Shown: positions 1 to 11,508 of the stretch, in pieces
Position numbering within the stretch: the stretch's first letter is position 1
Layout of the letters: every line of letters starts with the position of its first letter
Virus record (IMG/VR): IMGVR_UViG_3300010148_000114
Span: 1-24,357 of that record
DNA from: a virus
Strand: one strand, 5' to 3'
DNA length: 24,357 bases
Position numbers and translations under genes: made by a program
Notes under the pieces: model-generated
Database searches by the model: none
Seen by the model: only the letters and a program-made list of their open reading frames with translations
Told to the model about the DNA's origin: nothing

Positions 1-198
1 ACTAATAAAGATTTAGCAGACCTTGTAGGAATGGCACACAAAATTCGTATGGACGAACTCAAAGCTCAAACAGAACTAGAAAAAGCAAAAGCAGCAAACA
101 TAAAAAGTCAAACAAATGTACAGATAAATAGTGGAGAGTTACCTTTTGGACAAGGAAACTATGGTGAGCTTATGAAAAAACTTCTGAAAGAAAAATAA
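1..198 (+). CDS. C-terminal end of an unidentified protein (5' partial)
   Basis: The reading frame is open from base 1 to a TAA at 196-198, giving the last 65 residues of a protein that begins outside the window. The visible part is hydrophilic and mostly helical, with a Lys/Glu/Ala-rich stretch (about residues 18-35) that could form a coiled coil. It ends in a Lys-rich tail. The stop overlaps the next start by one base (TAATG), so the two genes are probably translationally coupled. I do not recognise the family, and too little is visible to assign a role. Confidence 0.75.
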   Translation, partial: TNKDLADLVGMAHKIRMDELKAQTELEKAKAANIKSQTNVQINSGELPFGQGNYGELMKKLLKEK

Positions 199-491
199 TG
201 AACATTTGGAATCTAATATCACAAGTAGGTGCACCAATAGCAGGAGCACTTGTTATGGGTATGTTTATATTTGTAATTATGAAACAAATCTTTGGAGGAG
301 TTGTAAATCAAGTAAAAACTCTTGAAGGATTTTGTAATAGTCTTATAACTAGAATTAAAACTATGAACAACGATATAATTAGATTAGATACTAGCGTAAG
401 TTCTGCTCTTGAACTTACACCAGACTTAGACAGAATAGCAAGAGCGGAAAATTTTATAGAGGACGGAAAGTTAGATGTCAGGCGTGATTGA
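198..491 (+). CDS. Small one-pass membrane protein, holin-like, paralogue of the next gene
   Basis: This 97-residue protein has a single hydrophobic segment near the N-terminus (about residues 8-29), then an amphipathic, charged helical tail. That is the layout of small phage holin-like proteins such as the BhlA type, but I see no diagnostic motif, so holin is an inference from architecture. The tail motif MNNDIIRL (about residues 56-63) is nearly repeated as LDNDMIRL in the gene at 475-726, so the two look like diverged duplicates. The gene lies directly upstream of the curli genes. It could serve in lysis or as a membrane partner of another protein. The start overlaps the preceding stop. 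Confidence 0.7.
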   Translation: MNIWNLISQVGAPIAGALVMGMFIFVIMKQIFGGVVNQVKTLEGFCNSLITRIKTMNNDIIRLDTSVSSALELTPDLDRIARAENFIEDGKLDVRRD

Positions 492-726
492 TGCCATACA
501 ACAGTTTGGATTTCCAATTGTTGCTATGGTTGGACTTGGATACTTTGTATATTATGTGTGGTTAACAATTACAAAAGTAATACAACCAGCAATAAAAAGT
601 ATGCACTTTACCCTGATAAAACTAATAGACCAGATTCGTATGCTTGATAACGATATGATTCGTTTACAGCAAAAGGTAAACACCGTTTTACAGATGAAAG
701 AGAATGAACGAAAGAAAGATAAATAA
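475..726 (+). CDS. Small one-pass membrane protein, holin-like, paralogue of the previous gene
   Basis: The 83-residue product has one N-terminal membrane segment (about residues 11-34) followed by a helical, highly charged tail ending in a Lys/Glu cluster. The NDMIRLQQKV stretch matches the equivalent region of the upstream paralogue. The start ATG lies 17 bases inside the upstream gene, preceded by a purine-rich GGACGGAAAG. Two related small membrane proteins in tandem could be a holin pair or a holin and antiholin, or subunits of one hetero-oligomer. The next gene (csgF) begins within its 3' end. Function is inferred only from layout. Confidence 0.7.
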   Translation: MSGVIDAIQQFGFPIVAMVGLGYFVYYVWLTITKVIQPAIKSMHFTLIKLIDQIRMLDNDMIRLQQKVNTVLQMKENERKKDK

Positions 727-1234
727 CCGACTCTCTAATGTAGTAGTAGGTACTATACTTATATTGATGAGTATTATTTTTATTGCAGAATTAAATGCAA
801 CAGAAATAGTACACAAGTTTTCTAACCCTAGTTTTAGTGGAATCAATCAATCTGCACATTATTTAACAATAGATGAGCAAGAAAGAACTCGTAAAGAAAA
901 AATTAGAGCAGACGCTCAAGAAGCATTAGAAGATGCTCAAAGAGAAGCAGATAATACAACACTTGCTAAGTTCCTCAGAAACTTAGAATCAAGGATATAT
1001 TCAACACTTGCAAAAGATATATCTGAATCCTTATTTAACTATGACAACCCCGCCACTTCTGAAAATCCAATTTATGGAGAAATAGAACTAGAAGGCAATA
1101 TTATTCAATGGTTAAATAACGGCATAACAATCACTCTTACCATTATAGAGATGGCAGATGGAGTAGAAATTTCTAGAACTACAATAACAATACCAGTTGG
1201 AAGTTTCGGTGGTTGTGTTGTAGACTGTGGTTAA
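704..1234 (+). CDS. csgF: CsgF-like curli assembly/transport factor
   Basis: This 176-residue exported protein matches the CsgF layout. It has an N-terminal hydrophobic signal segment (about 12-30, likely cleavage near NA/TE at 32-33), then the family signature FSNPSFSG (39-46), which in E. coli CsgF (FRNPNFGG) plugs into the CsgG pore. A charged helix follows (about 55-83). The C-terminal part has the CsgF pattern of a long helix and a beta-strand domain (NLESRIYSTL, then ITLTIIEMADG and TTITIPV). In curli systems CsgF works at the cell surface with CsgG to couple nucleation to secretion. The immediately downstream gene is csgG. Unlike E. coli CsgF as I recall it, this protein ends in a CX3C pair (Cys171, Cys175). 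The first ATG is chosen because the later Met22 would cut into the signal segment. Confidence 0.87.
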   Translation: MNERKINNRLSNVVVGTILILMSIIFIAELNATEIVHKFSNPSFSGINQSAHYLTIDEQERTRKEKIRADAQEALEDAQREADNTTLAKFLRNLESRIYSTLAKDISESLFNYDNPATSENPIYGEIELEGNIIQWLNNGITITLTIIEMADGVEISRTTITIPVGSFGGCVVDCG

Positions 1235-2057
1235 ATATTTAGTAATCGCATTATTATTACAAGGCTGCGCAAGTATAGGCATGCAACAATATCATTCAAA
1301 CTGCACAGACGGATTGCTATGTGTAGAAGGCCCAGTACTAGAGCCTAGTACAACAAAACAACTTTTAGATTTACCAACACCCAACCAAAAAACTGTGGTC
1401 GCAGTTTACGCATTTCCAGATTTAACAGGACAAAGAAAATCAAGCGATAATATTGCAAGTTTTAGTACTGCTGTTACACAAGGAGCAGAACACATATTAA
1501 TTGAAGCACTTCGTGATGCCGGTAGAGGTGACTGGTTTGCAGTTGTTGAAAGAAGTGGATTAGACCATGTTACAAAAGAAAGACAACTAGTAAGAAGTAC
1601 TTTTGAAAGCTACAATAGAGGTGCAGACGGTAAAACAATACTAAAACCACTAATATATGCAGGAATGTTAATAGAAGGCGGTATAATTGCATATGATACA
1701 AATTTAAAAACAGGCGGTAATGGTGCAAGATATCTAGGTATAGGTATGAAGAATCAGTATCGTGAGGATAAAGTAACTGTCGTCCTTAGAGCTGTGCTAG
1801 TGCAAACTGGTGAAGTACTCTTAAATGTAACAGCTACAAAAACGATTTTATCTACTGGGGGTGGAATGGACACGTTTCGTTTTATAGAAATGGGAACAGA
1901 GTTAGTTGAACTTGAAAGTGGATATTCAGAAAACGAGGCAGTTGGATACGCCGTGCGTGCCGCTATAGAAGCAGGTGTGTATGGTTTAGTTATGCAGGGC
2001 CTTGAAAAAGAAGTTTGGGATTTTGATTATTCCAAACTGAGAGAGGAAGAGAAATGA
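1227..2057 (+). CDS. csgG: CsgG-like curli secretion channel, outer-membrane lipoprotein
   Basis: The 276-residue protein is a clear CsgG. It starts with a lipoprotein signal (LLLQGC, acylated Cys14) and carries the family landmarks FSTAV (79-83), GARYLGIG (167-173), an LRAVLVQTGEVL strand (187-198), TKTILS (204-209), FRFIE (217-221) and SENEAV (234-239). CsgG forms a nonameric beta-barrel pore in the outer membrane that exports unfolded curli subunits. Length equals the E. coli protein within a few residues. By my alignment, the constriction residue Phe56 of E. coli is kept (Phe79). Asn55 is replaced by Ser78, and Tyr51 falls at Asp74 beside a one-residue insertion. Translation probably starts at the GTG overlapping the csgF stop. 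There is a CX5C pair near the N-terminus (Cys26, Cys32). Confidence 0.95.
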   Translation: MVKYLVIALLLQGCASIGMQQYHSNCTDGLLCVEGPVLEPSTTKQLLDLPTPNQKTVVAVYAFPDLTGQRKSSDNIASFSTAVTQGAEHILIEALRDAGRGDWFAVVERSGLDHVTKERQLVRSTFESYNRGADGKTILKPLIYAGMLIEGGIIAYDTNLKTGGNGARYLGIGMKNQYREDKVTVVLRAVLVQTGEVLLNVTATKTILSTGGGMDTFRFIEMGTELVELESGYSENEAVGYAVRAAIEAGVYGLVMQGLEKEVWDFDYSKLREEEK

Positions 2058-2731
2058 GAAAGATACTAGGACTATTCGCGATATGTCTATCTTTTGGAAC
2101 ATTTGCAGCAAATAATGATATTTATATCACTCAGACTGGTACAGGACTTACCTTGACAATTGACCAAATAGGTGCTAGTAACACCGTTGGTACTTCATCA
2201 AGTAGAGTAACCTTGTCAGGTACTTCTATGACTGTAGATATTGACCAGATTGGAGATAGTAACTCCTTTCTTGCTAGTATACTACAAGGTAATTCATCAA
2301 GTTGGACTTGGCTAAATACAGGTGATAGTAATACAGGAACTTTTACTGTTGGTGGAACAGGCGACGTAGCAAACTCAGACTTTGACTACAGCGCAACTGG
2401 TGACAGCAACATATTTACTTGGACACAAGGTGCGGCTGCTACAGCTACTGGAGGTAACCAAGATTTTACAATCACTGGTACTTCTAATGAGTACACAGGT
2501 ACTTGTGAGGTAGTTGGTTGTATAAATGCCTGGACTATTAGTGGAAATAGTAATGACATTACTACTACACAAACAGGTTCAGCCGACCACCAGATAACAG
2601 CATCGTTAACTGGTAATTCAAATACTGTAACTATTGACCAAACTGATACTGCATCAACAAATGTTGTGAATTTAATTTCAACAACAACAAATGGAACAAT
2701 AGACGTTGACCAATGCGCTTCTGGCTGTTAA
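2054..2731 (+). CDS. Curlin-repeat secreted protein, first copy (CsgA/CsgB-like)
   Basis: This 225-residue protein has a cleavable signal peptide (about residues 1-19, cleavage near FAA/NN) and then about eight imperfect units of roughly 22 residues. Each carries a G-x-SN turn, as in GASNT, GDSNS, GDSNT, GDSNI, GTSNE, GNSND and GNSNT, often preceded by IDQIG or a similar strand. This is the Gln/Asn/Gly curlin beta-solenoid pattern, so it is probably an amyloid fibre subunit or nucleator exported through CsgG. The repeats are more degenerate than in CsgA, and Ser/Thr-rich. Four cysteines (151, 156, 221, 225) are unusual for curlins; the last pair forms CASGC at the C-terminus. An ATGA overlap with csgG and a GGAAGAG site set the start. 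Confidence 0.88.
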   Translation: MRKILGLFAICLSFGTFAANNDIYITQTGTGLTLTIDQIGASNTVGTSSSRVTLSGTSMTVDIDQIGDSNSFLASILQGNSSSWTWLNTGDSNTGTFTVGGTGDVANSDFDYSATGDSNIFTWTQGAAATATGGNQDFTITGTSNEYTGTCEVVGCINAWTISGNSNDITTTQTGSADHQITASLTGNSNTVTIDQTDTASTNVVNLISTTTNGTIDVDQCASGC

Positions 2732-3819
2732 TATTTTTTATAGGAACAATCAGTGCGTCCGAAATAGGAGGAATATCTGAGATAAAAGGAAACGGAGAGA
2801 TAACTAGAGCAGACTCTAGTGACGCACTCACCGCAGAACTAAACTCAGATATTTTCTCTTATGATGATGTAAGAACAGGCAAAGGAAGACTAGCAATACA
2901 GTTTCTAGATGACTCTGTAGTAAAACTTACAGAACACTCAAAACTCATTATAGATGAATATATTTTTGACCCAGACCCAAACAAAAGCAAAATGGCTCTT
3001 AACATGGCTTCTGGAACTGCTCGTTTTATTACTGGCAAACTTGGAAGGATTAACAAGCAAAATATTTCTATAAAAACACCAACAGCTACGATAGGTATTC
3101 GTGGCACAGATTTTACAACTACTGTAGATGAATTAGGAAGAAGTTTAGTTATACTACTTCCAGATGAAGACGGAACCTCATCAGGAGAAATAACCGTAAC
3201 AACAGCATCTGGAGTAGAGATACTAAATGAACCTTTTCAGGCTACAATGGTATCAGCGTGGGAAACACCACCAACAAGACCAGTAACCCTGGCAAATATG
3301 ACTCTCGGGTTGATTGACAATATGTTAATTGTTAGTAGGCCTGAAGAAGTCAATGAAGCAGTAGAAGAGCAACAAACAGGAGTGTCACCTACTGCAGAAC
3401 TAGATAAAGATTTCTTTGAAGATGCACCAGATTTAGACTGTGATGCATTAGTTGAAGAATGTGACGAAGAAGAAAAAGAAATCACAAGATTAGACATAGA
3501 TTTATTATCTATAGACTTACTAGTAGATTTATTAGCATTAGTAGAAACAGCTAGTAAGAAAGCAAAAAATCAACAAGCTACTACTATTAGTAATGTAGAG
3601 TTAACAGGTATTATTGCAGGGTTTGACCCAGTATACCAAACTTTTACATTTGTTGAAGATGGACTTATTTATTTCGTACATGAAGGAGTAAATAGTTACG
3701 ATATAGGAATAGATACAGACACAGGAACATATTTATATATAAATAATGCAGGAGTAATAATGGAGGTAGAAATAAATGGTGCGGGCGATAATGTTATCAT
3801 TATTAATCAGTCTCCCTAG
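2713..3819 (+). CDS. Secreted FecR-domain protein with a curlin-like C-terminal motif
   Basis: The 368-residue protein has a short signal peptide (about 1-16). A FecR domain follows (about 48-135), recognised from GRLAIQFLDDSVVKL, the middle strand ending ASGTARFITG, and the signature TPTATIGIRGTDF. The rest is an acidic linker rich in Asp/Glu (about 200-265, with a CX6C pair), a helical segment, and a beta-rich C-terminus ending GAGDNVIIINQSP, which reads like one curlin repeat. In bacteria, FecR domains occur in periplasmic sensors and regulators and often sit beside CHASE2 cyclases; one lies two genes downstream here. It could therefore link fibre assembly to the cyclase, which is inference. 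The start lies inside the end of the curlin gene, and the stop lies inside the next one. Confidence 0.85.
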   Translation: MRFWLLIFFIGTISASEIGGISEIKGNGEITRADSSDALTAELNSDIFSYDDVRTGKGRLAIQFLDDSVVKLTEHSKLIIDEYIFDPDPNKSKMALNMASGTARFITGKLGRINKQNISIKTPTATIGIRGTDFTTTVDELGRSLVILLPDEDGTSSGEITVTTASGVEILNEPFQATMVSAWETPPTRPVTLANMTLGLIDNMLIVSRPEEVNEAVEEQQTGVSPTAELDKDFFEDAPDLDCDALVEECDEEEKEITRLDIDLLSIDLLVDLLALVETASKKAKNQQATTISNVELTGIIAGFDPVYQTFTFVEDGLIYFVHEGVNSYDIGIDTDTGTYLYINNAGVIMEVEINGAGDNVIIINQSP

Positions 3820-4576
3820 TTTTGCAGGAGATAATAGTCTTACTATAAAAACTAAAGGAACTGGTACTAGCATTACTGCTAAACAAGTAGGTAACGGTAA
3901 TGAAGGATACATACTATGCGGAGCAAACTCTAGCGGTTCACTACCCGGCACTTCCTACGTTTCACATACTTGTGGAAGCGCAACACTCAGTACTACAGTT
4001 ATAGGTAATAGTAATAATACTAGACTTTATACTGTATGGTCAAATAATATGGATAATAATTATACTATTACTATAGATGGAAATGATAATTTTGCTTGGC
4101 TAGACCAAGATGAAGACGATAATACTTCTACAATTACTCAGACAGGAGATGATAATCACGCAGAGCAGTTAGGTTCTGGAGATGATAATACATATTCAAT
4201 AACTCAAACAGGAGATGATAAGTATGCTAAGATATTTACTTTTGGAGATAACTCCGCTTTTACTATTAATCAGTATGGTAGTGGAGAACATAATACTTAC
4301 ATCTACAATCACTCAAACGCAGACAATAATACTGCTTCAGTAACACAGTATGGTACAGGAAATAAAGATGCAGATATATTCTTTTACAGCGATGCCGATA
4401 ATACAACTGTGAACTTAACACAATATGGAGCAGGGGCTCATGTAGCAAATATGAAATTTTATACTGACGATTATAATTTAAATGTTACTCAATCAGGAAC
4501 AACTAATCAAGCGTATACTGCAACTTTTAACTGTACATCAAACTGTACAAAGACTATAACTATAACACAAGAATGA
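3776..4576 (+). CDS. Curlin-repeat secreted protein, second copy
   Basis: This 266-residue product has a signal peptide (about 1-17, LLISLPSFAG) and then Gly/Asn/Asp-rich curlin repeats. The clearest units carry ITQTGDDN, ITQTGDD, INQYGSG, VTQYGTG, LTQYGAG and VTQSG, spaced about 20-24 residues apart. The I-x-Q-x-G turns are better preserved than in the first copy, so this may be the main fibre subunit, and the first copy a nucleator or minor subunit. Cysteines occur as one pair in the first third and as a CX3C pair (CTSNC) near the end. A strong GGAGG site lies 9 bases before the ATG, itself inside the 3' end of the FecR gene, suggesting high, coupled translation. Aspartate is abundant, so the repeats may bind calcium. 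Confidence 0.88.
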   Translation: MVRAIMLSLLISLPSFAGDNSLTIKTKGTGTSITAKQVGNGNEGYILCGANSSGSLPGTSYVSHTCGSATLSTTVIGNSNNTRLYTVWSNNMDNNYTITIDGNDNFAWLDQDEDDNTSTITQTGDDNHAEQLGSGDDNTYSITQTGDDKYAKIFTFGDNSAFTINQYGSGEHNTYIYNHSNADNNTASVTQYGTGNKDADIFFYSDADNTTVNLTQYGAGAHVANMKFYTDDYNLNVTQSGTTNQAYTATFNCTSNCTKTITITQE

Positions 4577-4959
4577 TAGAATACGCATTAATAGCAGACT
4601 TTAACTTTGCACAAATAAAAGAAGATTCAGCAAGAATAGATTCATATTTAGAAAGTCAAAAAATAGAGTTTGTAATAGATAACTCAATAGATTATGAAAT
4701 AAAACAATATATTCTTTGGAATATAGCAGACCTTTATACAACACATAGAGCTATGGAAACAACTTCTGCAAAAGAACAAAATCCTTTTTTACCGAGTAAT
4801 CCTGAACTTCATGAACTATTAATTCATAAAGCAACGTCTACTATTTCCATAGAACTATTAGGGTGGTTTGATGAAGAACTAAACGAAAATTTATTTACTT
4901 TAAATAGTTTAGGTTGGATAGTTGTATTTAATAATTTAGATGTACTATATGATAAATAA
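4573..4959 (+). CDS. Small protein of unknown function with a DUF5658-like motif
   Basis: The 128-residue protein overlaps the second curlin gene by ATGA and ends inside the cyclase gene, so it is embedded in this cluster. Residues 48-74 contain ADLYTTH and then EQNPFLP, followed by a lysine about 12 residues later. This resembles the D-x-x-TT ... E-x-NP ... K pattern of small DUF5658-type membrane proteins. That assignment is tentative, as the hydrophobic segments here are weak; the best candidates are about 45-56 and 106-125. The first 40 residues are acidic and soluble-looking. No catalytic role can be read from it. Confidence 0.65.
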   Translation: MIEYALIADFNFAQIKEDSARIDSYLESQKIEFVIDNSIDYEIKQYILWNIADLYTTHRAMETTSAKEQNPFLPSNPELHELLIHKATSTISIELLGWFDEELNENLFTLNSLGWIVVFNNLDVLYDK

Positions 4960-6733
4960 AATACTCACTTTAATTTTTGCACTAGGATTATTTATATGGA
5001 ATCCTTATCCAATGCAAATTCTAGAGCTCAAAACATTTGATTGGTTAATGTTATCACAACCAAAAATTCAAAATGAAAACATACTTATAGTAGACTTAGA
5101 TGAAGAAATAGTAGAGGCCTATGGAGGATATCCTTTGCCACGTTCTTTATTTGCGTCTATGATAGAAAAAACAGAAGGCATTCCTGGATTTACTATATTA
5201 ATGCCTGACCCAGATTTACGAGATAAAAATAACGACACTACATTAGCGATGTCTTTATTAAATAATCCAACTGTGTTAGCTTATGCAGCTTCAACACAAG
5301 CAACTGAAAAAGGTGCTCATGTGGGTACAGCTCAGTTAGGAGAAGACCCAATACCATGGCTATTAAACTATCCAGGAATTTTAAGACAACTACCAATTTT
5401 ACAAGTAAACGCAGACGGCGTAGGATTAATAAACTCCTCCCCAGAAGTAGACGGCGTCGTAAGACGTATGCCCGTAGTCGTCGCAAGCAAAGATAAAATA
5501 TTTCCTTCTTTTAGTTTAGAGATGTTAAGACTTGCAGTTGGTGACCCCAGCTATCAAATTAAGACTAATCAGGTAGGAGTAGAATGGTTAAGAATACCAA
5601 ACTATCCACTTATAAATACAGATTCAAATGGAAGAATATGGATAAATACTAATATAAATTTTTACAAACAAACTGCAGCTGAATATATGGCAGACCCAAT
5701 ACCAGCGCCCTTTGTTATATTTGGAGTTACAGCAGAAGGAGTAGTTAACCCTGTTCCAACTGCCTCAGGAGCAAAGTATCCTCATGAGATACAAGCGAAT
5801 GTACTCCACAATTTAATTGAAGGTACCGCACCCTCAATTCCCAACTGGAGTAGTGGAGCAGAGCTGGGAGCTGCAGTCTTGGCTTTGCTCTTTCTTTTAC
5901 TTACAGCAAGTAGAATCTATTTAAGTATACCTGCTCTACTCTTAGTTATTGGAGGTTCAATATATGGAGCCATATATGCTTTTGAATCTTCTTATTTGTT
6001 TGACGTTTCTGGGATTATTTTAATCTCCTTTTTATTCTGGAGTATTGAAAGTTTCCGTAATTTTGCAAAGACCTATTTTGAGAAATTACAAATTAAACAA
6101 CAATTTGGAACGTATGTAAGTCCTGACTTAGTAAAAAAATTACAGGACGACCCAACATTACTGAGATTGGGCGGGGAGACAAAACGACTCACTTTTCTTT
6201 TTTCTGATATTAGAGGATTCACACCAATCTCAGAAAAATATCAAAAAAATCCTCAAGGACTCACACAACTTATTAACAGATTCCTTGATAACCAAACACA
6301 AATCATACTAAAACATGGAGGCACCATTGATAAATATATGGGAGACTGTATCATGGCATTTTGGGGTGCACCACTTGATGACGAAGACCAAGTTAATAAT
6401 GCCACAAAGGCTGTCTTAGAAATGAGACTAGCACTAGGAGAATTAAATGAAAGACTCAGAGAAGAAGGCTTGGATACGATTAATACAGGAGCGGGAATCA
6501 ACACAGGACTCTGCGTGGTCGGTAACTTTGGTTCTAGCAATCGTTTTGATTACTCTGTACTTGGGGATAGCGTTAATCTAGCAGCCCGTTTAGAGTCAAG
6601 TTGTAAAGATTATGATACCGATTTAATTATTTCAGAATATAGTTTACTTGATGATTATGATTACGAGTTTCTAGACGAAGTAAAGGTCAAAGGCAAGTCA
6701 GAGCCCGTTAAAATCTATACCATACGAAAATAG
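4940..6733 (+). CDS. CHASE2-domain receptor-type class III adenylate cyclase
   Basis: The 597-residue protein has an N-terminal membrane segment (about 7-20), an extracytoplasmic CHASE2 sensor domain (about 28-295, with ILIVDLDEE near its start), three membrane segments (about 308-325, 327-346, 353-371), and a cytoplasmic class III nucleotidyl cyclase domain (about 412-597). The catalytic set looks complete: metal-binding Asp423 (FSDIRGF) and Asp469 (KYMGD), adenine-selecting Lys465, Ser539 at the Asp/Thr position, and transition-state Asn546 and Arg550 (VNLAAR). The Lys and Ser favour ATP, so it should make cAMP in response to a periplasmic or membrane signal. Start is at 4940, or possibly the Met codon at 4949. 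Such a receptor is unexpected in a phage and completes a FecR-CHASE2 pairing. Confidence 0.92.
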   Translation: MYYMINKILTLIFALGLFIWNPYPMQILELKTFDWLMLSQPKIQNENILIVDLDEEIVEAYGGYPLPRSLFASMIEKTEGIPGFTILMPDPDLRDKNNDTTLAMSLLNNPTVLAYAASTQATEKGAHVGTAQLGEDPIPWLLNYPGILRQLPILQVNADGVGLINSSPEVDGVVRRMPVVVASKDKIFPSFSLEMLRLAVGDPSYQIKTNQVGVEWLRIPNYPLINTDSNGRIWINTNINFYKQTAAEYMADPIPAPFVIFGVTAEGVVNPVPTASGAKYPHEIQANVLHNLIEGTAPSIPNWSSGAELGAAVLALLFLLLTASRIYLSIPALLLVIGGSIYGAIYAFESSYLFDVSGIILISFLFWSIESFRNFAKTYFEKLQIKQQFGTYVSPDLVKKLQDDPTLLRLGGETKRLTFLFSDIRGFTPISEKYQKNPQGLTQLINRFLDNQTQIILKHGGTIDKYMGDCIMAFWGAPLDDEDQVNNATKAVLEMRLALGELNERLREEGLDTINTGAGINTGLCVVGNFGSSNRFDYSVLGDSVNLAARLESSCKDYDTDLIISEYSLLDDYDYEFLDEVKVKGKSEPVKIYTIRK

Positions 6734-6809: not shown

Positions 6810-7007
6810 ATGGAGGCCAAACAAGTAGCTGCAGAATTAGAAAAGTATAAAGCTGTGAGTGCAGAAAGATGGAAAACTGCGTTTAACAGGTTTGATGCTA
6901 TAGACCTACAAGTTGGTAGATTAGAAACTATACTTATTGGAGCAGCTGGAGCAATAATTGCAGGTGGCTGCGGTGTATTATGGACTATACTATCTATGCA
7001 CCCATAG
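6810..7007 (+). CDS. Small coiled-coil plus membrane-anchor protein, XhlA-like
   Basis: The 65-residue protein has an N-terminal charged helix (1-38) with heptad-like spacing, then one C-terminal hydrophobic segment (about 40-62, rich in Ile, Ala and Gly) and a very short tail. This matches the layout of XhlA-type haemolysin/holin accessory proteins, though short length makes that tentative. An AAAGGAA site sits just ahead of the ATG. It is the first gene after the consensus promoter. It could be a third small membrane protein linked to lysis, or a superinfection-exclusion peptide. Confidence 0.68.
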   Translation: MEAKQVAAELEKYKAVSAERWKTAFNRFDAIDLQVGRLETILIGAAGAIIAGGCGVLWTILSMHP

Positions 7008-7015
7008 GAGAAAAA

Positions 7016-7177
7016 ATGGAATCAGGATATAAAACCAAAGATATGAAAGCAGAAGTCAAAAAAGAACTTCCTGTCTATCAAAAACGACAACATTGGTGTT
7101 TCAAATTAGATGGAGTATTACATAAGTTACCAACTAAAAAAGAAGCAGAAAAACAATATCTAGAACTAACTAAATGA
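7016..7177 (+). CDS. Small hypothetical protein (53 residues)
   Basis: The ATG at 7016 is chosen over an in-frame one at 6980 because AGGAG lies at 7006-7010, directly ahead of it, and the longer form would run back into the upstream gene. The protein is mixed-charge and basic. Its core, HWCFKLDGVLHKLPTKKEA, looks like a small beta-hairpin plus helix fold. Its stop overlaps the next start (ATGA). I do not recognise the family. Confidence 0.65.
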   Translation: MESGYKTKDMKAEVKKELPVYQKRQHWCFKLDGVLHKLPTKKEAEKQYLELTK

Positions 7178-7329
7178 ATACTTTTCAAGCAGCATTTCAA
7201 AAAGCACTAGATAATAGCGAGGGAGACCCTCAACTAGCACAAACAATTAAACACTCATTAGGGAAAAAGTGGAAAAGAAAAAAAGTCACGAAGAAAGATG
7301 GAAGATATGTCAAAAGTGTCCGCACTTAG
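7174..7329 (+). CDS. Small basic hypothetical protein (51 residues)
   Basis: An ATG overlapping the preceding TGA opens a 51-residue frame. It has an acidic-to-neutral helical first half and a second half rich in Lys/Arg (KKWKRKKVTKKDGRY). It is too short for routine gene calling but sits in a coupled run of small genes. The last 60 bases overlap the GTG-started gene at 7269. The lysine-rich end suggests nucleic acid binding, which is an inference from composition only. Confidence 0.6.
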   Translation: MNTFQAAFQKALDNSEGDPQLAQTIKHSLGKKWKRKKVTKKDGRYVKSVRT

Positions 7330-7430
7330 AAAAGCGCTGGAAGTTTTGTAAAGTCTGTCTTTGTTTTATGCCCCTCAAGACTAAGTTGCGATGGGCAGAG
7401 TGTCCTGACGAACCCCCTCGTTGGACATAG
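7269..7430 (+). CDS. Cys-rich, probable zinc-binding small protein with a GTG start
   Basis: Starting from GTG at 7269, behind an AGGGAAAAA purine stretch, a 53-residue frame runs to TAG at 7428-7430. It contains six cysteines: ICQKC (14, 17), FCKVCLC (27, 30, 32) and ECP (45), with conserved-looking Trp and Lys between them. Spaced CxxC pairs followed by CP and Trp are typical of small zinc-ribbon proteins seen in many tailed phages. The stop is followed at once by the AGGAG site of the next gene, and the 3' 100 bases are otherwise unused, which supports it being real. Its role is unknown; a structural zinc protein or a DNA/protein adaptor is possible. Confidence 0.68.
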   Translation: MEKKKSHEERWKICQKCPHLEKRWKFCKVCLCFMPLKTKLRWAECPDEPPRWT

Positions 7431-7440
7431 GAGCACTACT

Positions 7441-7575
7441 ATGGCATTAACTGCTAAGCAAAAGAAACTACCTAAAGCTTTACAACAGGCTATTTTAAAA
7501 AGCCAAAAGAAAAAAGGCATGGGTAAGAAAAAGAAAAAGAAAAAAGGTGGCAAAAAGAGACGGTCAAGAGGTTAA
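7441..7575 (+). CDS. Lysine-rich small protein (44 residues)
   Basis: A clear AGGAG (7430-7434) precedes the ATG at 7441. The frame encodes 44 residues: a helical first half (LTAKQKKLPKALQQAILK) followed by an almost pure Lys/Gly/Arg tail from about residue 23 on, including seven consecutive lysines. The extreme charge points to binding of DNA, RNA or a polyanion. The layout recurs in other genes of this region. The 3' end overlaps the GTG start of the next gene. Confidence 0.7.
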   Translation: MALTAKQKKLPKALQQAILKSQKKKGMGKKKKKKKGGKKRRSRG

Positions 7576-7948
7576 TATCATACCCGAGTACATAACTTGG
7601 TTATGGTACTTTAGAAAGATAAGTAAAGTTTGTCCTTGGTCGTATAAATCATTTATAGCAGGGACTACAAGAATAATTCCCTTTGATGAGAAAGAAATGT
7701 TACTTTCTGAACAAAACTGGGAAAAACAACCCTGGGAGGTGATAGTCTACCTGATGGGTGATGACCTAACTCTTGAAGAGATTGATGATATAGTGGCATT
7801 TAGAAATGAAAGCCAAGAGAAATGCGAATACTTATGGTCTCACCCATCTTTTTCTAAAGGTGGAAAGAATCAAACACATGTGCCTGTAATCATACAGCAA
7901 GATAGAGCAAAACTAATGGAATTAAGACATGCCCGTAAGAAAAGTTAA
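7547..7948 (+). CDS. Hypothetical protein, 133 residues, GTG start
   Basis: This frame begins at a GTG inside the 3' end of the Lys-rich gene and encodes 133 residues. It differs from its neighbours: near neutral to acidic and rich in Trp, Tyr and Phe in the first half (ITWLWYFRKISKVCPWSY). A central acidic stretch (GDDLTLEEIDDI) and a basic C-terminus follow. It looks like a folded cytoplasmic alpha/beta protein, possibly a minor head or packaging factor from position. There is no ATG start before mid-gene, which supports GTG. Not recognised. Confidence 0.65.
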   Translation: MAKRDGQEVNIIPEYITWLWYFRKISKVCPWSYKSFIAGTTRIIPFDEKEMLLSEQNWEKQPWEVIVYLMGDDLTLEEIDDIVAFRNESQEKCEYLWSHPSFSKGGKNQTHVPVIIQQDRAKLMELRHARKKS

Positions 7949-8093
7949 AGGCGGATATAGATTCGGTAAAACAGGAAAGATTCATAGAACTAAGAAAGCT
8001 GCTGACAGACAAGCAAGAGCAATATACGCATCAGGTTATGGTAAGAAAAAAACGAGACCCAAGAAAAGGAACAGGAAAAAAACCAAAAGGTAG
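7929..8093 (+). CDS. Small basic conserved-type phage protein (54 residues)
   Basis: An ATG at 7929, overlapping the end of the previous gene, opens a 54-residue frame to TAG at 8091-8093. It begins MPVRKVKGGYRFGKTGK and continues with a helix containing AADRQARAIYASGYGKKK. This glycine-tyrosine hairpin plus AIYASGY helix is a pattern I recall from small proteins in many marine and cyanobacterial phages. The Lys/Arg-rich last 15 residues overlap the next gene in another frame. Role unknown; the charge suggests nucleic acid contact. Confidence 0.7.
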   Translation: MPVRKVKGGYRFGKTGKIHRTKKAADRQARAIYASGYGKKKTRPKKRNRKKTKR

Positions 8094-8352
8094 CGGCAGA
8101 AGACTTTATACTGACGAGAATCCAAAAGATACTGTCAGAATTAAGTTTGCTACTGCAAAAGACGCACGAGCTACAGTACGAAAAGTTAAAAGAGTTCGTA
8201 AATCTTACGCAAGAAAAATACAAATACTAACAGTAGGTGAACAAAGAGCAAGAGTGATGGGAAAGAAAACAGTCGCATCAATCTTCAAGTCTGCGAAGGC
8301 AGGATTAAGGAGAGCACATGGTCGTAAGAAGAAGAAAAAGAAAGGCCGCTAA
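8038..8352 (+). CDS. Basic conserved-type phage protein (104 residues)
   Basis: The 104-residue protein has disordered Lys/Arg-rich ends and a folded-looking centre (about 30-90). The centre reads IKFATAKDARATVRKVK, then ARKIQILTVGEQRARVMGK, and is the part most likely conserved among phages. The C-terminus carries six consecutive lysines. The start lies 56 bases inside the previous gene, and the end overlaps the next by 35 bases. It may bind DNA or act in assembly; no enzymatic motif is visible. The Lys-rich ends resemble ribosomal proteins only in composition. Confidence 0.72.
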   Translation: MVRKKRDPRKGTGKKPKGSGRRLYTDENPKDTVRIKFATAKDARATVRKVKRVRKSYARKIQILTVGEQRARVMGKKTVASIFKSAKAGLRRAHGRKKKKKKGR

Positions 8353-8512
8353 AAAGAGACCACTACCAACAAACCCAACTCTTTATGCTAGAGTAAAAGC
8401 TGAGGCAAAGAGAAAGTTTAAAGTATACCCTTCCGCATATGCAAATGGGTGGTTAGTAAGAACATACAAAAAACGTGGCGGACGTTTTAGAATGGGAGTA
8501 AAGAAACGATGA
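8318..8512 (+). CDS. Basic small protein with a PSAYANGWLV motif (DUF-type)
   Basis: This 64-residue protein has an Arg/Lys-rich start. A helix with LYARVKAEAKRKFKVYPSAY follows, then ANGWLVRTYKKRGGRFR. The YPSAYANGWLV...YKKRGG signature recurs in small proteins of phages and giant viruses; I connect it tentatively with the DUF5872/DUF6321-type families. A GGAGAG site precedes the ATG. The gene belongs to the coupled cluster of basic proteins. Specific function unknown. Confidence 0.72.
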   Translation: MVVRRRKRKAAKKRPLPTNPTLYARVKAEAKRKFKVYPSAYANGWLVRTYKKRGGRFRMGVKKR

Positions 8513-8640
8513 TAGATTATATCAAAGAAACCTTCCTTCAGTTTTGGAATATTCTTTCGGGAAAGGATAAAAACTGGGACGGCTCTGTTGACATCAAAGA
8601 TAAAATGATAGAAGCAGAAGAAAAAGTAAAAAATGGCTAA
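8509..8640 (+). CDS. EF-hand-like microprotein (43 residues)
   Basis: The ATG overlaps the previous stop (ATGA) and opens a 43-residue acidic frame with GGGAG about 10 bases upstream. Residues 20-31 read DKNWDGSVDIKD. Asp1, Asn3, Asp5, Gly6, a hydrophobic at 8, Asp9 and Asp12 fit an EF-hand or dockerin-type calcium loop. It is preceded by an aromatic helix (YIKETFLQFWNIL) and followed by a charged helix, so it could be a complete single EF-hand unit. It is the only clearly acidic protein among strongly basic neighbours. Calcium binding is inferred from the motif. Confidence 0.65.
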   Translation: MIDYIKETFLQFWNILSGKDKNWDGSVDIKDKMIEAEEKVKNG

Positions 8641-8935
8641 GTATCAAGGCGGACTAACTAAATGGTTTAAAGAAGGTTGGGTAGATATATCTAGACCTAG
8701 AAAAGGCGGTGGTTATCAGCCTTGTGGCAGAAAATCTGCAAGAAAAAGCAAAAGCGGATATCCGAAATGTGTCCCTGCTAGTAAAGCTGCAAGAATGACT
8801 AAATCACAAATAAAGTCAGCAGTTAGAAGAAAAAGAGCAGCTGGTAATCCAGGAGGAAAACCAAGAAATGTTGCTACTTTTGCTAAGAGGGGTAGAAAGA
8901 AAAAAAGAACTACCAGAAGCAGACGCAAAAGATAA
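8633..8935 (+). CDS. Basic conserved-type phage protein with a GLTKWFKEGWVDI motif
   Basis: This 100-residue basic protein opens with GLTKWFKEGWVDISRP, followed by a Gly-rich turn, PCGRKSARKS, and PKCVPASKAARMTKSQIKS. The basic tail (VRRKRAAGNPGGKP) closes with a run of Lys/Arg. The first half, with its W/D motif and two cysteines, is a recognisable small domain shared by phage and large-virus proteins (DUF5872/DUF6321-type in my memory; exact number unsure). Overlap with the preceding gene is eight bases. Probably nucleic acid binding; role unknown. Confidence 0.75.
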   Translation: MAKYQGGLTKWFKEGWVDISRPRKGGGYQPCGRKSARKSKSGYPKCVPASKAARMTKSQIKSAVRRKRAAGNPGGKPRNVATFAKRGRKKKRTTRSRRKR

Positions 8936-8951
8936 TCCTAAAAAGGAAACC

Positions 8952-9128
8952 ATGAAAGAAAACTTAGTATATGAAATACTTGGTGTTGTGTCCATGTCAA
9001 TAAGACTAAAAAGAACAATAGAAGATAAGATTTCTTGGGGGATTCAGCTTCGTGAGTTGCTTCAACTCCCAAAAAACAAAGCTAACAGTAATATCGTTAG
9101 AGAATATTTAAAAGATGGCACTCAATAA
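8952..9128 (+). CDS. Small hypothetical protein (58 residues)
   Basis: The frame extends upstream to 8868 in the same phase, but the ATG at 8952 has an AAAAGGAAACC site just before it, and the extension would lie inside the previous gene. The 58-residue product is helical (ENLVYEILGVVSMSIRLKR, then a second helix) with mixed charge, unlike the surrounding Lys-rich proteins. It could be a small winged-helix or subunit-type protein. The next start overlaps its 3' end. Not recognised. Confidence 0.62.
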   Translation: MKENLVYEILGVVSMSIRLKRTIEDKISWGIQLRELLQLPKNKANSNIVREYLKDGTQ

Positions 9129-9315
9129 ACGAAAACACTCAGCATTTTTACGAAATAAACATGTTTATAAATCACCAGGCCCTGCTAAAAAAGCAGCGAC
9201 TAAACTGGGATTAAAAGGCATACATGCTCATGGCAGAGGAAAAGCCAAGAGATTTATGCCAGGAAGCTCTCATAAAGCATATAGAAATGCATTGAGAAAG
9301 AAAAGGAGAAAATAA
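9115..9315 (+). CDS. Basic small protein (66 residues)
   Basis: This 66-residue protein is rich in Lys, Arg, Ala and His, with a central PGPAKKAATKLGLKGIHAHG and MPGSSHKAYRNAL. It ends in a Lys/Arg cluster. Its stop abuts the next ATG directly (TAA then ATG). The repeated AKKAAxK/KGI pattern suggests a small fold that binds phosphate backbones, which is inference. Part of the basic cluster upstream of the terminase. Confidence 0.68.
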   Translation: MALNKRKHSAFLRNKHVYKSPGPAKKAATKLGLKGIHAHGRGKAKRFMPGSSHKAYRNALRKKRRK

Positions 9316-9558
9316 ATGGCAGGTAAATTTTTAAGCGGACCAAGTATTCACAATACTCAAAAAATCCGTAAGCATGTTCTCAAAAGAGGACTAACAAGAG
9401 ATATGAATGCAGCTGCAGGAACTTTAGTAAATACTAAAAATCCTAATGGCATAGAGGCATTTAGATATGCTACTGCACCAAAGGGCATAGGCCCACGTTT
9501 TGGCAAAACTAAAAATCCACCAAAAGCAAGATTTCCCGGAAGGAGAAGAAGAAGATAG
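9316..9558 (+). CDS. Basic small protein (80 residues)
   Basis: The 80-residue protein starts right after the previous stop and contains a moderately hydrophilic core (GPSIHNTQKIRKHVLKRG, then a segment with GIEAFRYATAPKGIG). It ends in a Pro/Lys/Arg tail with five final arginines. The purine-rich end of the previous gene (AGGAGAA) gives the ribosome site. Role unknown. A 75-base gap follows (9559-9633) with no convincing gene or promoter. Confidence 0.68.
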   Translation: MAGKFLSGPSIHNTQKIRKHVLKRGLTRDMNAAAGTLVNTKNPNGIEAFRYATAPKGIGPRFGKTKNPPKARFPGRRRRR

Positions 9559-9633
9559 ATATTTATAATAAATTTCATACTTTAATGAAATCAGGTAGAT
9601 TACCTAAAGTTTGTAAGATAGCAGGAATAAATA

Positions 9634-9963
9634 ATGGCACTAACAAAAGCAGAAAAAGCAAGATTAAAAAGAGCAGGGTTATCAAAGTTAAACAAACCAA
9701 AAAGAACACCTAATCATAGAACTAAAAAAGCTGTTGTTGCTACAAGAGTTGGTGGCAAGGTAAAAATTATTCGTTTTGGAGCACAAGGCATGGGGCATAA
9801 CTATAGCCCCGAGGCCAGAAGAAGTTTCAAGGCTAGACATAGGAAGAATATTGCAAAAGGCAGGTCTTCCGCAGCTTGGTGGGCAAATAAAGTCTTCTGG
9901 GCTGGAAAAGGTGGTAGTACAAAAAGACCACCAAAATCACAAAAACGTAAATTCGGAAAGTAG
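9634..9963 (+). CDS. Basic conserved-type phage protein with a SPEARRSFKARH motif
   Basis: The 109-residue protein has a Lys-rich N-terminus, a beta segment (VGGKVKIIRFGAQG), then GHNYSPEARRSFKARHRKNI, AKGRSSAAWWANKVFW, and a Lys-rich end. The combination of SPEAR, FKARH and AAWWANKVxW is familiar to me from proteins just upstream of terminase genes in marine phages. I cannot name a validated function. The consistent site next to the terminase suggests a packaging or DNA-associated role. A GCAGGAATAAAT site precedes the ATG. Confidence 0.75.
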   Translation: MALTKAEKARLKRAGLSKLNKPKRTPNHRTKKAVVATRVGGKVKIIRFGAQGMGHNYSPEARRSFKARHRKNIAKGRSSAAWWANKVFWAGKGGSTKRPPKSQKRKFGK

Positions 9964-9964
9964 T

Positions 9965-10210
9965 ATGGCACAAACACCAAAAGTAATAGATAGAAGAGTA
10001 GCATGGCTTGATGGAGTATCTGTAGAAGCAATAGAAATACTTGCAAAAATACAACATGAAGCCATTAACGGAGAAACTTTATCAGAGCACCAGAAAAATA
10101 TGACTGAGCTTTGTAGTGGTTACTTATATTTACTAAGACTATCTAAAGATTACGGACTTTTTGATTCAGACGACCCATTTAACTTATTTGAGAAAGAGAC
10201 CCTACATTGA
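9965..10210 (+). CDS. Small protein before TerL, possible small terminase subunit
   Basis: Start at ATG 9965, directly after the previous stop. A longer in-frame form from 9776 would lie entirely inside the previous gene. The 81-residue product is neutral to acidic and helical (SVEAIEILAKIQHEAINGE, then a long helix to YLYLLRL), with a short acidic C-terminus. Its position directly upstream of TerL is the usual place of a small terminase subunit, but it is short for one and shows no clear helix-turn-helix, so this is only a positional guess. Its stop overlaps the TerL TTG start. Confidence 0.6.
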   Translation: MAQTPKVIDRRVAWLDGVSVEAIEILAKIQHEAINGETLSEHQKNMTELCSGYLYLLRLSKDYGLFDSDDPFNLFEKETLH

Positions 10211-11508
10211 TAGAAATTAGTCGTTCAGATATAGTTTCAGACTATTTGATGAACTATGAAACAGAAGAAAGATTTATTAAACTACCTATTGAAGGGTATC
10301 TTGACTTATTGGGTATAGAACCTAACAGCTCACAATCAGCATTAATCAATGCAATCAATAATACAAAATATCGTTTTGTCTGCGCAGCAGTCGCTCGTCG
10401 TCAAGGCAAAACTTATATTTCAAACATAATCGGACAACTTATTTGTCTAGTTCCTAATAGTCATGTATTACTCATGTCACCTAACTACTCATTATCACAA
10501 ATATCATTTGACTTACAGAGAAATCTCATAAAGCATTTTGATTTAGAAGTTACAAGAGATAATGCAAAAGACAAAGTAATAGAACTATCAAATCAATCAA
10601 CAATTCGTATGGGTTCAATTAATCAGGTTGACTCCGTTGTTGGTAGAAGCTACGACTTAATTATCTTTGATGAAGCAGCACTAACAGACGGTAGAGACGC
10701 TTTCAATGTAGCACTCAGACCTACACTAGATAAAGATAACTCTAAAGCTATATTTATATCTACTCCAAGGGGTAGAAATAATTACTTTGCAGAATTTTAT
10801 CATCGTGGGTACAACGATGAATTTCCAGAATGGTGCAGTATAAAAGCTACTTGGCATGAAAATCCAAGAGTATCAGAACAAGATATTAAAGAAGCAAAAA
10901 AGACAATGTCGGAGTCAGAATTTAACCAAGAATATTTAGCAGACTTTAATGTATTTGAAGGTCAAATTTGGTCATTTAATTATGAACAATGCACATCAAA
11001 TTTATCAGAACTTGATACTAGAAACATGGACGTATTCGCAGGACTTGATGTTGGTTACAAAGACCCAACAGCTTTCTGTGTTATTGCGTATGATTGGGAC
11101 GAAAAGAAATACTATGTATTAGATGAATACTTAGACGCAGAAAGAACTACAGAACAACACGCAATACAAATACAAAAGTTAATAAAAAAATATGATATAG
11201 ATTATATTTATATTGATTCTGCTGCTCAACAAACAAGATATGACTTTGCACAAAACTATGATATTAGTACTATAAATGCAAAGAAATCTGTACTTGACGG
11301 AATAGGTCATGTAGCTGGTATAGTAGACAATGATTCTCTTATAGTAAATCAAACTTGCAAGCATGTCACTACATCACTAGACCAGTATCAATGGGATCCA
11401 AACCCAAATCTTATGAAAGAGAGACCAAAACATGATATGTCATCTCATATGGCAGATGCTTTACGATATGCGTTATATTCATTTGAAACTAGTGTCACCT
11501 CGTTCTAG
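10207..11508 (+). CDS. terL: Terminase large subunit (ATPase plus nuclease)
   Basis: The 433-residue protein is a full-length TerL. The ATPase part has an adenine/Walker A-type motif VARRQGKT (62-69), Walker B LIIFDEA (151-157, Asp155 and Glu156) and the coupling motif STPRG (185-189). The RNase H-like nuclease domain shows three metal-binding acids: Asp281 (GLDVGYKD), Asp337 (YIDSAA) and Asp417 (HMADALRYAL). It translocates DNA into the prohead and cuts it, with the portal encoded two genes on. The start appears to be TTG at 10207, overlapping the previous TGA; a shorter form from Met15 (10249) is possible. Family level assignment is firm; packaging strategy cannot be told from this alone. 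Confidence 0.95.
   Translation: MIEISRSDIVSDYLMNYETEERFIKLPIEGYLDLLGIEPNSSQSALINAINNTKYRFVCAAVARRQGKTYISNIIGQLICLVPNSHVLLMSPNYSLSQISFDLQRNLIKHFDLEVTRDNAKDKVIELSNQSTIRMGSINQVDSVVGRSYDLIIFDEAALTDGRDAFNVALRPTLDKDNSKAIFISTPRGRNNYFAEFYHRGYNDEFPEWCSIKATWHENPRVSEQDIKEAKKTMSESEFNQEYLADFNVFEGQIWSFNYEQCTSNLSELDTRNMDVFAGLDVGYKDPTAFCVIAYDWDEKKYYVLDEYLDAERTTEQHAIQIQKLIKKYDIDYIYIDSAAQQTRYDFAQNYDISTINAKKSVLDGIGHVAGIVDNDSLIVNQTCKHVTTSLDQYQWDPNPNLMKERPKHDMSSHMADALRYALYSFETSVTSF

Follow-up and report, generated by a model that had tools for sequence, protein, structure and literature searches.

We report that a stretch of DNA from a marine virus of bacteria (positions 1 to 24,357 of the IMG/VR record IMGVR_UViG_3300010148_000114; hereafter, the window, 24,357 nucleotides in all) encodes what is probably a curli (type VIII) secretion system in phage form, to which a bacterial pair for envelope sensing has been joined. 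Five overlapping genes on the plus strand, at positions 704-4576, encode CsgF, CsgG, a curlin-repeat protein (Cur1), a FecR-domain protein and a second curlin-repeat protein (Cur2), and a gene for a CHASE2 adenylate cyclase belongs to the same conserved unit. The reading that employs all conserved parts, and that we favor without considering it secure, is that both curlins would be exported via CsgG-CsgF to the surface of the infected cell, with the FecR protein and the cyclase acting as a putative envelope sensor. Modules of this type have already been published; what is new here is a third carrier lineage, the location among packaging genes, the apparent origin from two bacterial units and, from the analysis of gene neighborhoods, the correction of two published labels, iron regulator and histidine kinase.

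The five genes, which the initial annotation had recognized as consecutive and coupled, are all present in the open reading frame calls, and their products match Pfam families above the curated cut-offs: CsgF (704..1234, E=1.6e-11), the outer-membrane pore lipoprotein CsgG (1227..2057, E=5.6e-54), secreted Cur1 (2054..2731, one Curlin_rpt repeat, E=1e-4), the secreted FecR-domain protein (2713..3819, FecR domain at residues 51-144, E=2.5e-13) and secreted Cur2 (3776..4576, three Curlin_rpt repeats, E=8.5e-16). In the alignments, the signal sequence of CsgF is followed by a conserved mature start, HKFxxPSFSG, and CsgG has the lipobox LLQGC. Profile searches against solved structures matched the viral CsgG profile to Escherichia coli CsgG (E=1.9e-64) and the Cur2 profile to curlin-repeat chains (8c50, E=1.3e-10; 8enq, which is CsgA, E=2.1e-4), and found no solved relatives for the CsgF and FecR profiles. 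Of the components by which curli (type VIII) secretion is recognized in sequence, the CsgG pore lipoprotein, CsgF and secreted curlin-repeat subunits are thus found, with the CsgE gate as the exception. The reported absence of CsgE, CsgC and CsgD holds for CsgE, for which a search with its own model came up empty in the window and in five related contigs, these being fragments; models of CsgC and CsgD were not searched. CsgE has been described as non-essential, and some bacterial curli loci are without it (PMC7029224).

The curlin-like G..N motif occurs eight times in each repeat protein, against a mean of 2.2 in shuffled versions of Cur1 (1 of 2000 shuffles as high) and 2.9 in those of Cur2 (6 of 2000). 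The beta-solenoid fold first expected of the repeat proteins was pursued for Cur1, the weaker of the two by its Curlin_rpt match, for which AlphaFold, with 20 sequences as input, produced an all-beta model (predicted local distance difference test (pLDDT) 78, predicted template modeling score 0.78). Foldseek returned no match to this model below E=0.001, and the VIA-align matches are mostly beta-solenoids, among which the CsgA fibril (Z 10.5, root-mean-square deviation 8.8) stands level with unrelated solenoids; the structural matches support a predicted solenoid shape for Cur1, not kinship or descent. In the window, Cur1 ends in CASGC, and Cur2 and CsgF also carry a C-terminal cysteine pair. 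Within the set of relatives from T5-like phages, to which the window belongs as discussed below, this pair is present in 33/33 CsgF, 35/35 Cur2 and 35/36 Cur1 sequences; in the other two phage sets, CsgF and Cur1 are without it, barring one Cur1 call, and Cur2 often terminates in a more widely spaced pair.

The genes were identified correctly at the outset, but the extent was not: the conserved unit spans 198-6733 and is longer than 704-4576, with two small membrane proteins on the 5' side and the cyclase (4940..6733; CHASE2, E=5.4e-31, and Guanylate_cyc, E=3.1e-21) on the 3' side, all on the plus strand. Between Cur2 and the cyclase lies a gene for a 128-amino-acid protein with no assigned function (4573..4959, plus strand), found in only part of the relatives. 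In the window, each gene from the small terminase subunit (TerS) through the cyclase overlaps its successor, so that these genes likely share a single transcript. The gene order small-small-CsgF-CsgG-Cur1-FecR-Cur2-cyclase is repeated, within the reach of each contig, in 199 phage-type contigs, with Cur2 or the cyclase undetected in some of them, mostly of the HTVC008M type. For the six main genes, the ratio of nonsynonymous to synonymous substitution rates is 0.07-0.20, near the 0.08 of the large terminase subunit (TerL), indicating purifying selection on all six, both curlins included, so that both curlins, and not just the pore, are retained.

CsgF and CsgG were described in pelagimyophages in 2020, where the idea of 'sibling capture' was named (PMC7029224). 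The arrangement HK-CsgF-CsgG-CsgA/B-FecR-CsgA/B-AC was then described in Podoviridae and Myoviridae pelagiphages in 2022, in a study that discusses aggregation, exclusion and uptake as roles and names Siphoviridae for other genes only (PMC9599517). The records of phages HTVC008M (NC_020484) and Melnitz (MZ577097) show the same gene order, and the early impression that it is unusual for a module to bring its own subunits and adjoin a cyclase has to be abandoned. The Melnitz record (6836-9630 in our locus L039) annotates two curlin-associated repeat proteins; the corresponding publication states that csgA and csgB are lacking (PMC9004378). Our literature search, which misses many subscription papers, found no report of curli genes in Demerecviridae.

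The two small membrane proteins (protein a, 198..491, 97 amino acids, phrog_18771, E=8.5e-26; and its paralogue, protein b, 475..726, 83 amino acids, E=2.5e-26; both plus strand) stand as a phrog_18771 pair 5' of csgF across phage lineages, and no homologue was found in the bacterial loci examined. Protein a consists of one N-terminal membrane helix and a conserved amphipathic tail, and it occupies the place of the published 'HK'; from position, we infer that the genes labeled HK (PMC9599517) are those of the small proteins. A histidine kinase can be rejected: none of 18 members of the family (83-97 amino acids, one membrane helix) matches a Pfam kinase, and the proteins are without HisKA and ATPase domains. 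Weak matches to a holin family were detected in 5 of the 18 (best E=0.0027). After the cyclase, nearly all relatives encode a 65-amino-acid protein (6810-7007 in the window) with a C-terminal membrane helix, a conserved ERWKT motif and a holin-like shape, the sole match of which is an unnamed phage family, phrog_38642.

The two one-helix proteins beside csgF, with their weak holin resemblance, speak in favor of the possibility that the CsgG pore is a lysis device, which would open late, depolarize the envelope and time lysis, with the curlins as passengers or plugs. This role was proposed for Melnitz in 2022 (PMC9004378), and both the missing CsgE gate and the late-type site between the terminase genes suit it; nevertheless, it leaves unexplained the purifying selection on CsgF and two curlins, as well as the FecR-cyclase pair. 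Moreover, CsgG is located in the outer membrane and cannot alone break the inner-membrane potential. Because the selected curlins are left unexplained, we regard lysis by the pore alone as quite unlikely; among the roles initially proposed, it fits worst, and aggregation and superinfection exclusion both stand.

In the CsgG tree, a branch with 98/95 support divides all viral CsgG, those of the published phage modules included, from the sampled bacterial CsgG. The T5-like set, 14 sequences in all, groups together (100/99), and this clade is joined to one of two other phage clades at 94/78, not a firm placement. The bacterial sequences were a limited sample, retrieved with patterns that favor viral motifs and including no identified Alphaproteobacteria, so the tree neither confirms nor refutes the published alphaproteobacterial origin. 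Curli-type loci in metagenome-assembled genomes of Saprospirales, Flavobacteriales and Synechococcus (L040, L041 and L042) branch from within the viral CsgG clade. Directly upstream, L042 also carries a HesB-like gene, an arrangement shared with the phages, and all three are probably phage contigs mis-binned with bacteria. A further CsgG, 40% identical to that of the window, comes from an unverified wastewater record of 1.5 kb labeled 'Salmonella phage' (OR851715.1, our L154), probably a stray assembly fragment.

Over a 150-bp stretch at the center of Cur2 (4201-4350), the window is 55% identical in nucleotide sequence to the related locus L002, compared with mostly 90-99% elsewhere in the module, and L002 is 89% identical over this stretch to L003, which belongs to another lineage. 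This pattern is suggestive of allele exchange within the central Cur2 repeats, and such exchange fits an exposed protein. It would also suit a surface arms race and thus the suggestion that the fibers mainly shield the infected cell against other phages (PMC9599517), in which case export would proceed as described above and only the benefit would differ. The site between the terminase genes, which would imply late timing, does not favor superinfection exclusion, and we consider it rather unlikely as the main benefit.

In the FecR-domain protein, alignment and Pfam analysis show a signal sequence that leads straight into the FecR domain, with a single hydrophobic maximum, located N-terminally, and no cytoplasmic anti-sigma region; the AlphaFold model has a mean pLDDT of 30, and we make no claim on its fold. 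Because there is no anti-sigma region before the membrane helix, and because no Sigma70_r2 sigma factor was matched in six contigs, all fragments, the label of a FecI-FecR iron regulator is unsupported. The same observations speak against the idea that the CsgG-CsgF pore lets the infected cell import iron carriers or large nutrients (PMC7029224, PMC9599517). A pore for which CsgE was not found would be compatible with such uptake, and in one related locus (L036) NifU-like and HesB-like iron-sulfur genes adjoin the module; the two selected curlins and CsgF, however, would have no part in it, and we judge uptake highly improbable.

Alignment of the cyclases shows D423, K465, D469 and R550 to be invariant, and N546 nearly so. 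The catalytic residues of class III cyclases serve in metal binding and in the transition state. With both a CHASE2 sensor and these residues in place, the protein is a predicted class III membrane adenylate cyclase. Among the closest bacterial CHASE2 cyclases, taken from 398 Pseudomonadota genomes, 13 of 15 loci have a FecR-domain gene within a few kb, mostly directly adjacent, and none of the 15 has curli genes nearby. Conversely, neither FecR nor the cyclase was found around 82 bacterial curli loci (77 CsgG loci and the five loci with the most similar CsgF), where curlins are common. The difference in FecR presence, 13/15 vs 0/82, gives a Fisher p=2e-14, which is only indicative given that the samples share ancestry. 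The phage module hence appears to join two bacterial units, curli export and a FecR-CHASE2 cyclase pair, a composition that is new here. There is precedent for such pairs in bacteria: a secreted FecR protein lies beside a CHASE2 receptor in a biofilm-controlling Burkholderia operon (PMC5192318), and Sinorhizobium CHASE2 cyclases respond to a protein whose signal reaches them via a barrel in the outer membrane (PMC13001267). A role of FecR and the cyclase as envelope sensor would be in keeping with these systems, and the neighborhood analysis points to FecR with CHASE2, and to the phrog_18771 pair, as candidate functional partners.

The module is carried by a phage-type genome, as originally proposed: the flanks encode terminase, portal, capsid, tail tube and tape measure proteins, and a bacterial chromosome can be dismissed for this virus record with its terminase-to-tail gene order. 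TerL (10207..11508, plus strand, Pfam Terminase_6N/6C), the downstream border of the cargo, is 47-49% identical to those of T5-like phages, and the capsid protein is about 38% identical to that of Vibrio Demerecviridae. From these homologies and the order of virion genes in the 24 kb window, the carrier appears to be a T5-like (Demerecviridae-related) siphovirus, the third phage lineage with this module and one newly recognized here. The upstream border is the 3' part of TerS (1..198, plus strand, phrog_3802, E=3.2e-11), which runs off the window; 22 related loci have a whole TerS on that side of the module. The module sits between TerS and TerL. Among 80 contigs with the closest TerL, 21 reach more than 4 kb upstream, and 19 of these have module genes there.

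The site between TerS and TerL may be a general slot for surface cargo. One contig with a related TerL (L435, 1833-4024) is without the curli module and encodes upstream of TerL proteins with signal-like starts, one with a weak legume-lectin-like match. In L036 (7625-8985), the iron-sulfur proteins mentioned above and a Gcw_chp outer-membrane-type protein lie between TerS and the module. Between the cyclase and TerL, at 8038-9963 of the window, successive genes encode very small and highly basic proteins, several of which have an isoelectric point of about 12; one resembles DUF5872, below the cut-off, and these proteins are possibly DNA-condensing. Rfam searches found no RNA element such as the riboswitch of Melnitz.

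Taken together, these observations suggest the following scenario for curlin export. The module would be transcribed late, along with the packaging genes; Cur1 and Cur2 would enter the periplasm via their signal sequences, traverse the CsgG pore, where CsgF would sit at the exit, and assemble into curli-type fibers on the infected cell. FecR, secreted as well, would cooperate with the CHASE2 cyclase, a putative partner suggested by gene neighborhood, and the state of the envelope or of fiber export would be signaled as cyclic AMP (cAMP). The fibers would alter the contacts of the infected cell; the most likely benefit would be either sibling capture, in which host cells are kept close to the burst to come, or the exclusion of rival phages. 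The conserved mature N-terminus of CsgF, the overlap with TerS and the position between TerS and TerL are in line with this scheme. Two points weigh against it: lacking CsgE, the system may export poorly or through an ungated pore, and cultures infected with Melnitz, another carrier of the module, showed no clumping (PMC9004378). A bolder and doubtful extension is that the two phage-only membrane proteins and the FecR-CHASE2 cyclase replace CsgE and CsgD, with cAMP reporting fiber export, and that the T5-like fiber is disulfide-locked via the C-terminal cysteine pairs of CsgF, Cur1 and Cur2. If curlin export takes place, infection could glue planktonic marine bacteria together, with consequences for aggregation, for gene exchange and for phage encounter. 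Now that a third phage lineage is seen to keep the module under selection and in the same gene order, a relic seems less likely than a function of use to many phages.

Among known systems, Vibrio phage Pontus (Demerecviridae) offers the closest view of the carrier. Its order of TerL, small gene, portal, small gene, protease and capsid, and onward of connectors, tail terminator, tail tube, chaperone and tape measure, is closely alike to that of the window; however, TerS and TerL are adjacent in Pontus and about 10 kb apart in the window, which also differs in having protease and capsid in one reading frame and a lambda-type minor tail protein. The pelagiphage type VIII secretion module consists of the same genes (two small proteins, CsgF, CsgG, curlin, FecR, curlin and adenylate cyclase), but its carriers are T4-like myoviruses or podoviruses, and the window is set apart by its T5-like siphovirus carrier, by a CsgG that is 44-49% identical and forms a separate clade within the viral side, by the location between TerS and TerL, and by the cysteine pairs that end CsgF and Cur1. 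With E. coli curli (csgBAC-csgDEFG) the window has in common CsgG, CsgF and curlin-repeat subunits, from which it departs in that no CsgE was found and that FecR, the CHASE2 cyclase, two phage-only membrane proteins and cysteine pairs are added. Finally, the Burkholderia BiofilmReg system resembles the window in its secreted FecR-domain protein adjoining a CHASE2 receptor (PMC5192318); that receptor is a histidine kinase whereas the one in the window is a cyclase, and, unlike the phage module, the bacterial FecR-CHASE2 loci examined stand apart from curli genes.

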